Shown here in pieces: positions 16,245 to 20,180 of a stretch of DNA of 64,000 nt. Source of the stretch: Microlunatus antarcticus (GTDB lineage: Bacteria; Actinomycetota; Actinomycetes; Propionibacteriales; Propionibacteriaceae). Within the stretch, counting starts at the first letter, position 1; the number at the start of each line of letters is the position of its first letter. The stretch is taken from assembly GCF_014193425.1 (NCBI RefSeq), contig NZ_JACHZG010000001.1, positions 3,596,001 through 3,660,000 of the forward strand, written 5' to 3'. The notes beneath the pieces were generated by a model, which was not told the DNA's origin, searched no databases, and worked only from the letters and a program-made list of their open reading frames with translations. The position numbers were made by a program, and so were the translations under genes.

Positions 16245-16656
16245 GGGACGAGTCGGTCAGGCGGTCGCGGCGTACGTGCTCTCAGAGGCGTGCGTCGAGG
16301 AAAGTCCGGACTCCGAAGAGCACGGTGGTGGGTAACGCCCACCCGGGGTGACCCGCGGGACAGTGCCACAGAAAGCAGACCGCCCACCCGCCTCGGCGGC
16401 GTGGGTAAGGGTGAAACGGTGGTGCAAGAGACCACCAGCACCCCCGGTGACGGGGGTGGCTAGGCAAACCCCACCGGGAGCAAGACCAAGAAGGCGCCCT
16501 CCTGCAGAGGAGGACGCCGCGGGAGCGTTCGAGGGCTGCTCGCCCGAGCTCCCGGGTAGGTCGCACCAGGCCGCTGGCAACAGCGGTCGCAGATGGATGA
16601 TCGCCCCCTCCGCTCCGGCGGGGGGACAGAATCCGGCTTATCGACCGACTCGTCCC
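16245..16656 (+). ncRNA. rnpB: RNase P RNA, bacterial class A
   Basis: RNA subunit of ribonuclease P, which matures tRNA 5' ends. Conserved core elements are present in order: GAGGAAAGTCCGGACTCC (16297-16314), ACAGAAAGCAGACCGCC (about 16367-16383), GGTAAGGGTGAAACGGTG and, near the 3' end, AGATGGATGATCGCC and ACAGAATCCGGCTTA. The P1 helix is perfect: GGGACGAGTCGGTC at 16245-16258 pairs with GACCGACTCGTCCC at 16643-16656. The 3' strand of P1 is duplicated 3.5 kb downstream, marking an integration site. Confidence 0.95.
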
Positions 16657-16657
16657 C
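16630..16657 (+). repeat. Left 28-bp direct repeat (putative attL) in rnpB 3' end
   Basis: AATCCGGCTTATCGACCGAC followed by TCGTCCCC. It recurs at 20153-20180 with one mismatch (G to T at the sixth base). It covers the conserved 3' end and the P1 strand of RNase P RNA, so the RNA gene remains intact at this side. Confidence 0.85.
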
Positions 16658-16670
16658 CACCCGGCAGATT

Positions 16671-16687
16671 GAGCGCAGAACGCGCTC
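16671..16687 (+). terminator. Short hairpin after rnpB
   Basis: GAGCGC (16671-16676), a 5-base loop and GCGCTC (16682-16687), 15 bp after the RNase P RNA. There is no T-run. It may end rnpB transcription or be chance in GC-rich DNA. Confidence 0.3.
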
Positions 16688-16697
16688 TGACTAGGCA

Positions 16698-17339
16698 TTG
16701 AACCTATCGCATGCGTGGATTTATGTGCACCTGCGTGCACTTCCGTTCGGTCAACTCCGGTCGTCTCCGCGGGGATGCTTACGGTCACATGCACCTGACG
16801 GTCACCACACGGTCAACGATCTGCAGCTGCTGCGCCGGCTCACCCAGCTCGCCGACGAACCCGCCATGCGCCGCATCGCCCAGGACGTCACCGCCGCGGC
16901 CTCCCGCGCTCACCGCGTCATCGACCGACCCGCCGACCTCTACGCGTACGGGCCTAGCCCCCCGTGCGGCGTGCAGATCGTCCAGGAGCGGATCCACGCC
17001 GACGACCACAGCACGCTCGTCCGCTGCCGCCAGGCCGACTGCGACTACCAGGCCACCGTCGCCGATCACCAGGTCACCCAGCTCGCTCTCCGCGAAGGCA
17101 CCTGGCTCACCCTCACCGAGCTCGTCGGCGCCCTCACCAACGGCGGCGTCCCCGTCACACGCGACCAGATCAAGGACTGGGCCGACCGCGAAGGTCTCCC
17201 CCACGAGAAGCGCGCCCGCACCCGCTGGATCCACGGCCACGTCCAGAAGAACGAGGTCTGGACCTACCGCGTCGGCGAGGTTCGTGACCTCGCCCCGCGA
17301 GCTCAAGAACGACGGAAGCGGACGGCACTTAGCACCTGA
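16698..17339 (+). CDS. Phage-type Zn-ribbon and helix-turn-helix protein
   Basis: 213 aa from TTG at 16698; GTG at 16725 is an alternative, and coding character is clear only from about 16810 (NDLQLLRRLTQLADEPAMRR). A central segment with Cys/His pairs (PPCGVQ ... RCRQADCDYQATV) looks like a degenerate zinc ribbon. The C-terminal part (LTNGGVPVTRDQIKDWADRE ... WTYRVGEVRDLA) looks like a MerR/excisionase-type winged helix-turn-helix. Such proteins occur in actinobacterial integrative elements and prophages. Its place beside the left attachment repeat fits a regulatory or excision role; the N-terminus may be truncated by the insertion. The 3' end overlaps the convergent HNH gene by 37 bp. Confidence 0.65.
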   Translation: MNLSHAWIYVHLRALPFGQLRSSPRGCLRSHAPDGHHTVNDLQLLRRLTQLADEPAMRRIAQDVTAAASRAHRVIDRPADLYAYGPSPPCGVQIVQERIHADDHSTLVRCRQADCDYQATVADHQVTQLALREGTWLTLTELVGALTNGGVPVTRDQIKDWADREGLPHEKRARTRWIHGHVQKNEVWTYRVGEVRDLAPRAQERRKRTALST

Positions 17340-18169
17340 CGCATCCAGCCGCGGCGTCTGCGGAGTGCTTTGAGATCAGTGCGCCACTCGTGTCCTTCAA
17401 ACGCTTCAGGCGGATGGTCCCAGGACTGCCGTAAAGCTTGTGCCTCACGCGCGTACACCCCTCGTCGTGGCGGCCACATCACAGCCGACTGCGTAGACGG
17501 CCAAAGCTGGACGAGGCGCTTGTCGGTCTGCGGAAGCTCAAAGGCAACCGTCGCCGGGCTGGAGAGCCCCGCTGCGTCAAGGCTGACGGTCTCCCTCGAC
17601 CCCCTGACGTCAAATGGGATGACAAGTTCCCAGATCACTAACCCCAACTGTGTGACTTGCTTGTGCCGAGCGCGGCCCAAACGAGCAGGAACAGGCGCAA
17701 ACCGCGAGACCAGAGGCTTGTCCTTGAAGGGGGCGAACAACCCTGCCCGGACGCTCGCCCGCGGCATCAAGTCTCGGTCTAGCAGCATCTGCTGCAAGAC
17801 CAATCTGAGCACGTCGTCAATCTCCGATGTAGCGCCACCGATCGCGCGGCGCTCAGCATCGCCGGTCAAGCGGAGGACCAGTCCGGTCTTCACCATCCAT
17901 CGCACTGCTAAGAACTGATCACGATCGGACAGCAAAAATCGGTCTCCCGCAATCAGGCGTTCCATGACCGGCCTTCCTGGCTCCTCGAAGGCCAGGTTCA
18001 GCCCTGAGTTGCATGGACCGCAGATGTACCTCCACGGGTTCGCTGGCAAGTTCGTCTCCGTTGGGGGAAAGCTCCTCTTCAGCACAGTTCGAGCCCACTG
18101 CGTGTACACGTGCTCTTTGGTCATCTCGCGCCGTGCACCGCACAGCGGACACCGGCCCTTCTTCGCCAT
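17303..18169 (-). CDS. HNH/treble-clef type putative nuclease
   Basis: 288 aa. The N-terminus has CPLCGARREMTKEHVYTQW followed by YICGPCNSGLN: two CxxC knuckles flanking an EH dyad, the pattern of HNH-type treble-clef nucleases in which the second knuckle reads CxxCN. The remaining 220 residues (about 65-288) are not recognised and end in a basic tail (RRRRGWMRQVLSAVRFRRS). Third positions are less GC-biased than in flanking genes, suggesting horizontal transfer. Island context suggests a defence or mobile-element role; activity is inferred from motif only. Confidence 0.72.
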   Translation of the reverse strand: MAKKGRCPLCGARREMTKEHVYTQWARTVLKRSFPPTETNLPANPWRYICGPCNSGLNLAFEEPGRPVMERLIAGDRFLLSDRDQFLAVRWMVKTGLVLRLTGDAERRAIGGATSEIDDVLRLVLQQMLLDRDLMPRASVRAGLFAPFKDKPLVSRFAPVPARLGRARHKQVTQLGLVIWELVIPFDVRGSRETVSLDAAGLSSPATVAFELPQTDKRLVQLWPSTQSAVMWPPRRGVYAREAQALRQSWDHPPEAFEGHEWRTDLKALRRRRGWMRQVLSAVRFRRS

Positions 18170-18202
18170 TCAGAGAATGGTAGAGGCCACATTGGACGTC
18201 GT

Positions 18203-18237
18203 CAGCGCCCCTCCGCCATCACGGCAGAGGGGCGCTG
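18203..18237 (-). terminator. Hairpin terminator after lipoprotein gene
   Basis: An 11-bp perfect stem (CAGCGCCCCTC at 18203-18213 with GAGGGGCGCTG at 18227-18237) with a 13-base loop lies just beyond the stop of the lipoprotein gene on the minus strand and before the HNH gene start. Confidence 0.55.
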
Positions 18238-18246
18238 TTCTGCGTT

Positions 18247-18856
18247 CTACCTGACGGGGCCACTAAAGGTCGCCACCTCGTGCGTGCCCAGATCTAGGTC
18301 GAAGTCCAGCGTGACGTCTCCCTGCGCCTTCCGGGGGATGGCATAGGTCTCCGAGATCGTCTTCGCGCGGCCAGCACGGATCGTGCCGAACTCTTCGAAC
18401 TCCTGGTCCTTGGTGAATCTTTGCTCCGCCTGTTCACCGTCGGCGCCGTAGCTGACCGTGACCTCGCCCGCGACGTCGTCCAGCGGCGCGGTCGACCCAT
18501 TTCTGACCCGCATGTAGAACCGGACGAGGTCCTGACCGACCTTGCCGTCGGGGTCGACGTCCTCGACGTCCGCCTTGGTCATCTTGGAGAACTTAACCTT
18601 GACGATGGACACCTCAACGTCGTCCGACCACACGTACTTGCTCCCCTCGCTGAAGCCTTTCGAGTTTGCGGTATCGGGGGTGGGCTCGCTGGTCGTCGTG
18701 GCCGCTGACGGCGTAGGGCTCGAACTCTCCACCGGCGCCTCCGAGGTAGCCGAGGCCGTGGGCGCGGGGCTTGTGCTTGCGCCGCCTGGTCGCGGCGTTA
18801 CCCCGCAGCCAGAGACGGCAACAACGGCAACGACGACGAGAGCCCCCCCGGATCAT
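18247..18856 (-). pseudogene. Lipoprotein gene with a one-base frameshift in its signal peptide
   Basis: The frame ending at 18247 reads upstream into an excellent lipoprotein signal: LVVVAVVAVSGCG with lipobox VSGC, then a Ser/Thr/Pro linker and a DUF4352-like beta domain (about 130 residues, VRFYMRVRNGSTAPLDD). However, that frame meets TGA before any ATG. The natural start, ATG at 18856 (MIRG...), is in the neighbouring frame. The two join if a run of seven C on the plus strand (18843-18849) is read as six. So either the assembly has a homopolymer error or the gene is frameshifted or phase-variable. The shorter reading from GTG at 18732 would lack the signal. Confidence 0.7.
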
Positions 18857-18980
18857 CTGGACAGGATGAGGCATCCGGGCCTCATCCGCAGACGGACCGC
18901 TGGACTACCCCCGGAGGGGTGGTGTCAGGGCTTGCCCCGGGGCGCTTCGTACCCTCGCGGCATCGCCCGGTAGGGCGAGA

Positions 18981-19235
18981 TCAGCCGGTACCGCCAGCGC
19001 CCGGCGATGTCGCGAGGTGCTCGTCGTAGTGGCTGAGCACCGGCTCGTACCGCTCGCCGTCCTGCTCGAGGTGCTCGGGCGCGCTGTCGACGTCGAGCTC
19101 CAGGCGCTGGGTGTCGCTCCGGCCGCCCTTGAGGATGATGCGCAGCACGCACGGAAGGTAGTTCGCTGACGGTCGGGCCTTCGTCTCGGCGACCCTGTCC
19201 CAGGGTCGCCGGAACATCACCTGGAACCATGGCAA
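18981..19235 (-). CDS. Small acidic hypothetical protein
   Basis: 84 aa from ATG at 19235, or 78 aa from ATG at 19217 (MFRRPWDR). Nearly every third position is G or C and the C-terminal half is charged (RLELDVDSAPEHLEQDGERY ... YEPVLSHYDEHLA), which argues for real coding. No family recognised. It is divergent from, and with the longer start overlaps by 7 bp, the HEPN/Ig-like gene, so the two may share a control region. Confidence 0.55.
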   Translation of the reverse strand: MPWFQVMFRRPWDRVAETKARPSANYLPCVLRIILKGGRSDTQRLELDVDSAPEHLEQDGERYEPVLSHYDEHLATSPGAGGTG

Positions 19236-20074
19236 CCATGGCGCACCTCGACACCGGTACAGCTCTACAGGCCTGCGAGACGGCTCTCCGCGACCTGATG
19301 GCTCACGCGTACTCGAAGACCTACGGCGCTGGCTGGCTGGAGAAGGTCGCGGGGGCAGAGAAGATCGCTACCTGGGCGGACCGGGCAACCGAAGAAGTGA
19401 AAACCCGCGGGGCGCGTGGTGTAGTCGAAGTCCCCAACATCGGCCTCGCGTACGCGAACCTGTACGACCTCGTCGCCTTTGCGGACCGCCACTGGGAGCC
19501 TCTCGCCGAGGCTCTTGGGAAGAAGGCGGACGTCCTGCCCCTCCTCCGGCGAGCAGAGCGTCTGAGGAATCCTGTCGGGCACAGCCGCTCCCTCCTGCCG
19601 TTTGAGGAAGATCTGCTGTCCGGTATCGCTGGCCAGATCAGGAACCAGGTCACGATCCACATGAGCTCCGAAGCCCCTACCGGGGAGATCTACCCGCGCA
19701 TCGAGAAGGTGACCGACTCGTTCGGGCGCAGGTCCGGCTCCGCGATCGCTGATTCTCAGATGCCGACGGGAGCGGTGAACAATTCCGTCATTGTCCTGCG
19801 CCCCGGAGAAGTTGTCACCTTCACCTGCGTCGGCTCGGACCCGCAAGGCCGTGACTTGCTGTGGAGGTTCGGCGGCTCAGCGGGTGGACAAGACAGCATC
19901 GTCGCTCCCTCGGGGACGGAAGCCCAGCTCACCTGGACTGTCCAAGACAAAGACATAAACGAGAACGTCGGCGTCGCCGTCTACCTGGAGGCTCACGAGG
20001 CGAAGTACCACCGCTTCGGATCCTTCGACCACAAGCTCTTCTTCGCTTTCCGCGTCAGGCCGCCCGGCCACTGA
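19229..20074 (+). CDS. HEPN-domain protein with C-terminal Ig-like domain
   Basis: 281 aa. The helical N-terminus (about 1-150) resembles Swt1-type HEPN domains: DLMAHAYSKTYGAGWLEK, then YDLVAFADRHWEPLAEAL and RRAERLRNPVGHSR. The last segment holds the Rx4H motif (RNPVGH) characteristic of HEPN ribonucleases. The C-terminal part (about 180-281) looks like an Ig/PKD-type beta sandwich: LRPGEVVTFTCVGSDPQG, LLWRFGG and VAVYLEAHEAKYHRFG. No signal peptide is present, so the Ig-like domain is probably cytosolic. ATG at 19238 is an alternative start. The last gene before the right attachment repeat; an RNase-type defence effector is plausible but inferred. Confidence 0.7.
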   Translation: MATMAHLDTGTALQACETALRDLMAHAYSKTYGAGWLEKVAGAEKIATWADRATEEVKTRGARGVVEVPNIGLAYANLYDLVAFADRHWEPLAEALGKKADVLPLLRRAERLRNPVGHSRSLLPFEEDLLSGIAGQIRNQVTIHMSSEAPTGEIYPRIEKVTDSFGRRSGSAIADSQMPTGAVNNSVIVLRPGEVVTFTCVGSDPQGRDLLWRFGGSAGGQDSIVAPSGTEAQLTWTVQDKDINENVGVAVYLEAHEAKYHRFGSFDHKLFFAFRVRPPGH

Positions 20075-20152
20075 GAGGACTGGCCGTCCGACTTCCAGCC
20101 CCCAGCACGGTCAAGAGACGGTCACGGCGTCGAGAATCGCGCTAAGTAGCCA

Positions 20153-20180
20153 AATCCTGCTTATCGACCGACTCGTCCCC
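20153..20180 (+). repeat. Right 28-bp direct repeat (putative attR)
   Basis: AATCCTGCTTATCGACCGAC followed by TCGTCCCC, 27 of 28 bases identical to the rnpB 3' end at 16630-16657. It ends 10 bp before the stop of the resident SGNH hydrolase gene and marks the island's right border. Confidence 0.85.

Follow-up and report, generated by a model that had tools for sequence, protein, structure and literature searches.

A One-Base Frame Break at a Seven-G Tract in a Putative Lipoprotein Gene on an Island at the 3′ End of rnpB in Microlunatus antarcticus

Results and Discussion

An Island at the 3′ End of rnpB

The window (the 64,000-nucleotide stretch of the Microlunatus antarcticus genome that was analyzed) encodes rnpB, the class A RNase P RNA, on the plus strand (positions 16249-16656), and an island lies at the 3′ end of this host gene. 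A 28-nt, att-like direct repeat formed by the 3′ end of rnpB (16630-16657, plus strand) recurs at the far end of the island (20153-20180, plus strand) with 27 of 28 positions identical, such that the island is bounded by a terminal direct repeat of the 3′ end of the RNA gene. The island comprises 3,523 bp when the far repeat is included (16658-20180), carries the lipoprotein gene that is the main subject here, and has a GC content of 65.0%, as compared to 72.3% and 74.1% in approximately 6 kb on either side.

The ORF closest to rnpB (213 aa; 16698-17339, plus strand) matches phrog_908, a family of unknown function (E = 5.2e-18). It is followed on the minus strand by a 288-aa ORF (17303-18169) without a family match, the start of which (CPLCG...EHVY) resembles an HNH motif. 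Beyond the lipoprotein gene, an 84-aa ORF on the minus strand (18981-19235) begins with a TTG start, scores positively in codon statistics (0.35 per codon), and is without a clear family match, and a 281-aa ORF on the plus strand (19229-20074) has weak matches to HEPN_Swt1 (E = 0.021, below the cut-off) and to PADLOC PDC-M34B (E = 3.1e-6). As judged from these matches, the 281-aa ORF is possibly an anti-phage or defense gene. Profile matches of the five island ORFs that were tested did not include an integrase.

Islands integrate at the 3′ ends of structural RNA genes such as those for tRNA and tmRNA. The island in the window resembles tRNA/tmRNA islands in the duplication of the 3′ end of the RNA gene, in its lower GC content, and in its phage- or defense-like cargo, but differs from them in that its target is rnpB and in that an integrase was not found in the window copy. 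The island, with the lipoprotein gene as cargo, looks like a mobile element that was inserted at the 3′ end of rnpB and is without an integrase, being either a remnant or a relative of integrase-encoding islands such as those described below.

Among 17 congener loci, one (L127 in genome G003) has an arrangement that is more compact than that of the window, in which aroQ lies approximately 330 bp past rnpB, as compared to 4.4 kb in the window. In the window, a GDSL-like gene that is too big for the 330 bp of G003 is located between the repeat and aroQ. Because this gene, which is outside of the repeats, also differs between the two genomes, G003 does not represent a clean empty site. The other congener loci have other rnpB neighbors.

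Duplicated rnpB Ends in Related Genomes

A pattern describing the rnpB end was matched in 14 of 20 genomes of the genus and in 47 of 196 genomes of the order, mostly as one copy. A backwards control pattern also matched 26 of the 196 order genomes, which indicates that some of the single rnpB-end copies are surely due to chance. Two copies on the same strand, separated by 1.3-11.5 kb, were identified in the window genome (G000) and in G009, G205, G197, and G027. In G009, G197, G205, and G027 (loci L144, L142, L141, and L143, respectively), one of the copies coincides with the end of a complete RNase P RNA match. The island in G197 is 9.6 kb in length and encodes a tyrosine integrase adjoining rnpB together with genes that are phage-like by eye, and that in G027 is 11.5 kb in length and encodes a tyrosine integrase adjoining rnpB and a TrwC relaxase. 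The island in G205 encodes a small lipoprotein with a DUF4352 match that is below the cut-off (E = 0.077). The alignment of this protein (L141) with the lipoprotein in the window is confined to the signal and linker.

The presence of duplicated rnpB ends in four further genomes of the family, two of them with a tyrosine integrase, suggests that rnpB is a recurrent landing site for mobile elements within this family. This genomic context is the larger point to emerge from the locus. A literature search, the coverage of which was incomplete, found no report that names rnpB as such a landing site.

A Frame Break at a Run of Seven Gs

On the minus strand of the island, a frame of 201 residues plus a stop codon (18247-18852) is open for what is predicted to be a DUF4352-like lipoprotein, without a usable start ahead of its lipobox. 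Read directly, the minus strand consists of an ATG (18856-18854), ATC, a C (18850), and a run of seven Gs (18849-18843; C7 on the plus strand), followed by the CTC (18840-18838) that opens the signal LVVVAVVAVSGCG. From the A of the ATG to the CTC there are 16 bases, equivalent to five codons plus one, such that the frame of the ATG (MIRGGS...; 18854-18856, minus strand) and that of the lipoprotein are one base apart and part at the G run. An alternative ATG located upstream (18872-18874, minus strand) is in the same frame as that at 18856 (MPHPVQMIRGG...) and has a GAGG five bases upstream. The recorded sequence does contain the frame break. The initial annotation had assigned the ATG and the lipoprotein signal to different frames that are offset by a single base at a seven-base tract, and both the coordinates and the 16-base spacing bear this out.

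In the lipoprotein frame, the codons that follow the run specify S-G-G-A-L-V-V-V-A-V-V-A-V-S-G-C-G, and the stop codon is at 18249-18247. The frame is closed upstream by a TGA (18853-18855, minus strand) that overlaps the ATG, and none of the codons up to the lipobox is ATG, GTG, or TTG. The recorded sequence consequently lacks the start codon and basic n-region that would be expected, in the frame of the signal, of a bacterial lipoprotein, and the first in-frame start is a GTG downstream of the lipobox (18730-18732, minus strand), which would yield a 161-aa product without a signal peptide. When the open stretch from 18852 was subjected to mononucleotide shuffling, 23 of 5,000 shuffles were free of stops. 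As in genes subject to phase variation, the locus has a repeat tract at the start of an ORF, and changes in the length of the tract would shift the frame.

The Lipoprotein and Its Relatives

The product of the open frame comprises a hydrophobic stretch, a lipobox (VSGC), a linker rich in Ser, Thr, and Pro, and a C-terminal domain, with the hydrophobic stretch and the lipobox ending in Cys both present in LVVVAVVAVSGC. A regular expression for lipobox-like strings, applied to 18 stretches of 20 kb each from the genome, returned only 8 in 719,928 six-frame residues, real and chance occurrences together. The rarity of such strings in the genome sample indicates that the signal is not a product of chance and upholds the initial description of it as a lipoprotein signal.

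The protein has no Pfam match above the cut-off, including to DUF4352 (PF11611), and its match to phrog_806 is weak (E = 1.8e-4). Distant proteins were matched in 15 of 96 genomes, its own included, and three of the five relatives tested (L005, L006, and L008) pass the cut-off for DUF4352. The protein in the window is like DUF4352 lipoproteins in having a lipobox, a low-complexity linker, and a single small C-terminal domain, but is unlike them in lacking the DUF4352 match itself. Identity to the relatives is at most 35% over most of the length and reaches 38-43% over short N-terminal stretches only. Relatives from the same genus (L008, query residues 3-200), the same family (L009, residues 7-200), and the same order (L012, residues 4-199) align through the signal peptide, and an N-terminus composed of Met, basic residues, a hydrophobic stretch, and a lipobox is present in L006, L008, and L012. 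Matches to L013, L015, L016, L018, L019, and L020 are confined to the N-terminal region and extend no further than query residue 117. A single-sequence AlphaFold model was uninformative (mean pLDDT of 48.4).

No orthologue of the lipoprotein was identified in collections of genome contigs, plasmids, and viral contigs, and a second scan of genome contigs with the neighboring GDSL-like protein again returned none, with records very near the window genome possibly left out of both. In the 10 of 18 loci that could be parsed, the longest run of G or C near the start and signal is 5 bases; these proteins are not orthologues, and 4 of the 10 are N-terminal matches only.

Ltp, a superinfection-exclusion prophage lipoprotein of the Streptococcus thermophilus phage TP-J34, is likewise a small lipoprotein of the cell surface that is encoded by an integrated element. 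This likeness is one of general description, and a role in exclusion for the lipoprotein in the window is a guess only.

Codon Statistics and a Survey of C/G Tracts

The window holds one C7/G7 tract, as compared to a mean of 28.4 in dinucleotide shuffles. A total of 63 C/G tracts of at least 7 bases were identified in the genome (88 overlapping matches were merged), or approximately one per 69 kb. Roughly one such tract is therefore expected in 64 kb, and the presence of one in the window is unremarkable. The notable feature of the tract is its position at the frame break.

All 63 tracts, along with 189 random positions from the same stretches, were evaluated for the gain in a codon-model gene path that is afforded by a free frameshift. 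Of the tracts, 27 are inside called genes, and the tract in the window is outside of them. The gain was 0.0 bits at the tract in the window, 74.8 bits at one of the 27 tracts inside called genes (C1:1813425 in L064; see below), and at most 4.1 bits at those that remain. Gains in excess of 30 bits were obtained for 1 of 63 tracts and 2 of 189 random positions, which are about equal shares; thus, enrichment of frame breaks at the C/G tracts of the genome was not found, and large gains can be obtained at positions without a tract as well. Six tracts received a shift flag in this survey, five of which proved on reading to be gene boundaries, leaving that in L064 as the only real case.

In the first ~150 bases past the tract in the window, the codon score of the lipoprotein frame is negative and that of the ATG frame is somewhat higher, reaching +8.2 per 90 bases, whereas beyond ~150 bases the lipoprotein frame clearly has the top score. 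A frameshift codon HMM applied to the window and to 18 stretches of 20 kb from the genome did not flag the tract. The gain of 0.0 bits means that an upstream extension of the lipoprotein frame to the ATG is unsupported by codon statistics, and these statistics are the main counter-evidence to a frameshifted lipoprotein gene. The case is carried instead by the signal peptide and by the relatives that align through it.

The HMM flagged 20 jumps in the 377,111 called coding bases of this sample. Six flags were judged by eye to be real: four in L100:6993-7754, one at L099:466, and one at L108:17412 (an in-frame stop). The others were rejected, being mostly the ends of genes with weak codon scores. 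The longest one-base run within 45 bases of the six real flags is at most 4, and homopolymer errors accordingly do not look rife in the assembly. The stretch L100:6993-7754 in the window genome is a decayed gene fragment with several changes of frame away from long homopolymers, and pseudogenes seem to be present in the genome.

A Second Broken Tract in the Same Genome

The tract with the gain of 74.8 bits lies in an NAD(P)-binding gene of the same genome (L064:1569-2421; C1:1812968-1813820), the frame of which changes at a G7 run (C1:1813425). The left half of the gene matches the Pfam family NAD_binding_10 (E = 1.3e-15), and no Pfam family was matched by the right half. The two halves match, in order, single intact frames in the congeners G013 and G017 (L130 and L131), with 64-68% identity. 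By arithmetic, the breaks in this gene and in the lipoprotein gene are both +1. The occurrence of the same lesion in an unrelated gene favors a general cause, whether slippage or assembly error, over a device specific to the lipoprotein.

Origin of the Frame Break

The break in this small lipoprotein gene, which is cargo of the island, is probably the result of an ordinary slip by one base in the G run, whether it arose in the cell or in the data. The gene would encode a small, exported, DUF4352-like lipoprotein carried by the remnant of a mobile element at rnpB, and its product would presumably be located at the cell surface. Its ancestor was presumably in frame. With the G run after the start now one base out of length, translation from the ATG would exit the lipoprotein frame ahead of the signal peptide, such that the recorded form would be an OFF (null) allele. 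The slip itself probably has no regulatory role. The initial annotation had listed sequencing error, gene decay, and an on/off switch as causes; the second broken tract favors error or real slippage from this list, while positive evidence for a switch was not obtained.

Replication slippage in the cell is quite possibly the cause. NucS was identified in the genome (PF01939, E = 1.2e-36), and no MutS_I match was found in the assembly, which is 95.19% complete and in which such a gene could therefore be missed; 11 of 14 control genomes had a match. A review reports that NucS is unable to correct indels (PMC8228993). With NucS present, MutS not found, and NucS reportedly blind to indels, slips in G runs may persist. 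A base-calling or assembly error at the homopolymer is also a plausible cause, if a slightly less favored one. A real slip would add one more example of G/C indels left unrepaired in an actinobacterium in which MutS was not detected. If the break is an error, it shows that automatic annotation would place the start of this gene at 18732, with loss of the export signal.

Known length-variable tracts provide two comparisons, one of them in Propionibacterium (Cutibacterium) acnes, which we take to belong probably to the family of the window organism. The other is in Mycobacterium tuberculosis, where the 5′ half of glpK is reported to contain a hypervariable run of seven Gs, with one-base expansions in resistant isolates and loss of function at high frequency (PMC6667613). 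The two cases are alike in that each concerns an actinobacterial gene with seven Gs in its 5′ half, where expansion by one base breaks the frame, but in glpK both lengths are documented in many isolates (PMC6667613), whereas the window offers one genome, one length, and a gene that is not conserved. In P. acnes, 54 tracts with length polymorphism are reported across 90 genomes; most of these tracts are composed of G or C, and some are in genes and truncate them (PMC4746626). The tract in the window is similarly of G/C and in a position to truncate a gene, but it is recorded at a single length.

Alternative Explanations

It is unlikely, although less so than the remaining alternatives, that the tract is a slippage switch, in which the G run would change length frequently and reversibly and the lipoprotein would be on in a minority of cells. 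The tract is at the extreme 5′ end of the gene, between the start and the export signal, where a slip would act as a clean on/off change in a probable surface protein encoded on a mobile element. The hypervariability of the glpK run, the variation of intragenic and sometimes truncating tracts among P. acnes strains, and the finding of NucS and not of MutS are in keeping with such a switch. However, a tract of seven bases is short and only a single length is recorded from one genome; the tract survey revealed no enrichment of frame breaks; the relatives that could be parsed, none of which is an orthologue, have no such tract; and tract variation in P. acnes is reported to track clades rather than active modification (PMC4746626). 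An elaboration of this idea is marginally less likely: in an organism whose only detected mismatch repair system is blind to indels, slippage at the G7 run would switch on the lipoprotein of an element parked at rnpB in a small minority of cells, perhaps to exclude phages or to let them in.

Recoding is very improbable. In this scenario, the frame as recorded would be genuine, and the lipoprotein would be produced through a +1 slip of the ribosome, or slippage of RNA polymerase, at the G run. The run is read in frame as CGG GGG GGC, and the codon score of the ATG frame is slightly positive for ~120 bases past the tract. However, heptamers of the type X XXY YYZ favor a -1 slip, and a -1 slip at the heptamer present here (G GGG GGC) leads by arithmetic into the third frame and not into that of the lipoprotein, so the arrangement is not that of a programmed -1 frameshift, in which the slippery heptamer would lead into the downstream frame. 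The local RNA fold is ordinary (z of -0.70; 41 of 200 shuffles are as stable), and relatives that could be parsed are without such a tract. A hairpin upstream of the ATG was also considered but rejected, being no better than in shuffles.

Translation from the GTG at 18732, which would yield a protein without a signal peptide that is not exported and leave the lipobox as a leftover, is unlikely and is given very little credence here: the codon score of that ORF is positive (0.33 per codon) and codon scores are good only from ~150 bases past the tract, but the protein would open in the Ser/Thr/Pro linker and lose a lipobox that relatives have kept.

Longer C/G Runs in the Genus

The window genome has a run of 24 Cs with low codon scores around it (L148:2360-2383; C1:730859-730882), and very long runs were also observed in congeners, including 26 Cs in G019, 23 Cs and 18 Gs in G011, and 18 Gs in G018. 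Runs of C or G of at least 9 bases were identified in 14 of 20 congener genomes, and ten fetched stretches containing such runs had no blastn match among themselves. In G007, a run of 12 Gs is located inside a 356-aa ORF that is ornithine-cyclodeaminase-like by eye (L155:1102-2172), and this ORF is possibly a better candidate for a slippage switch than is the tract of the lipoprotein gene.
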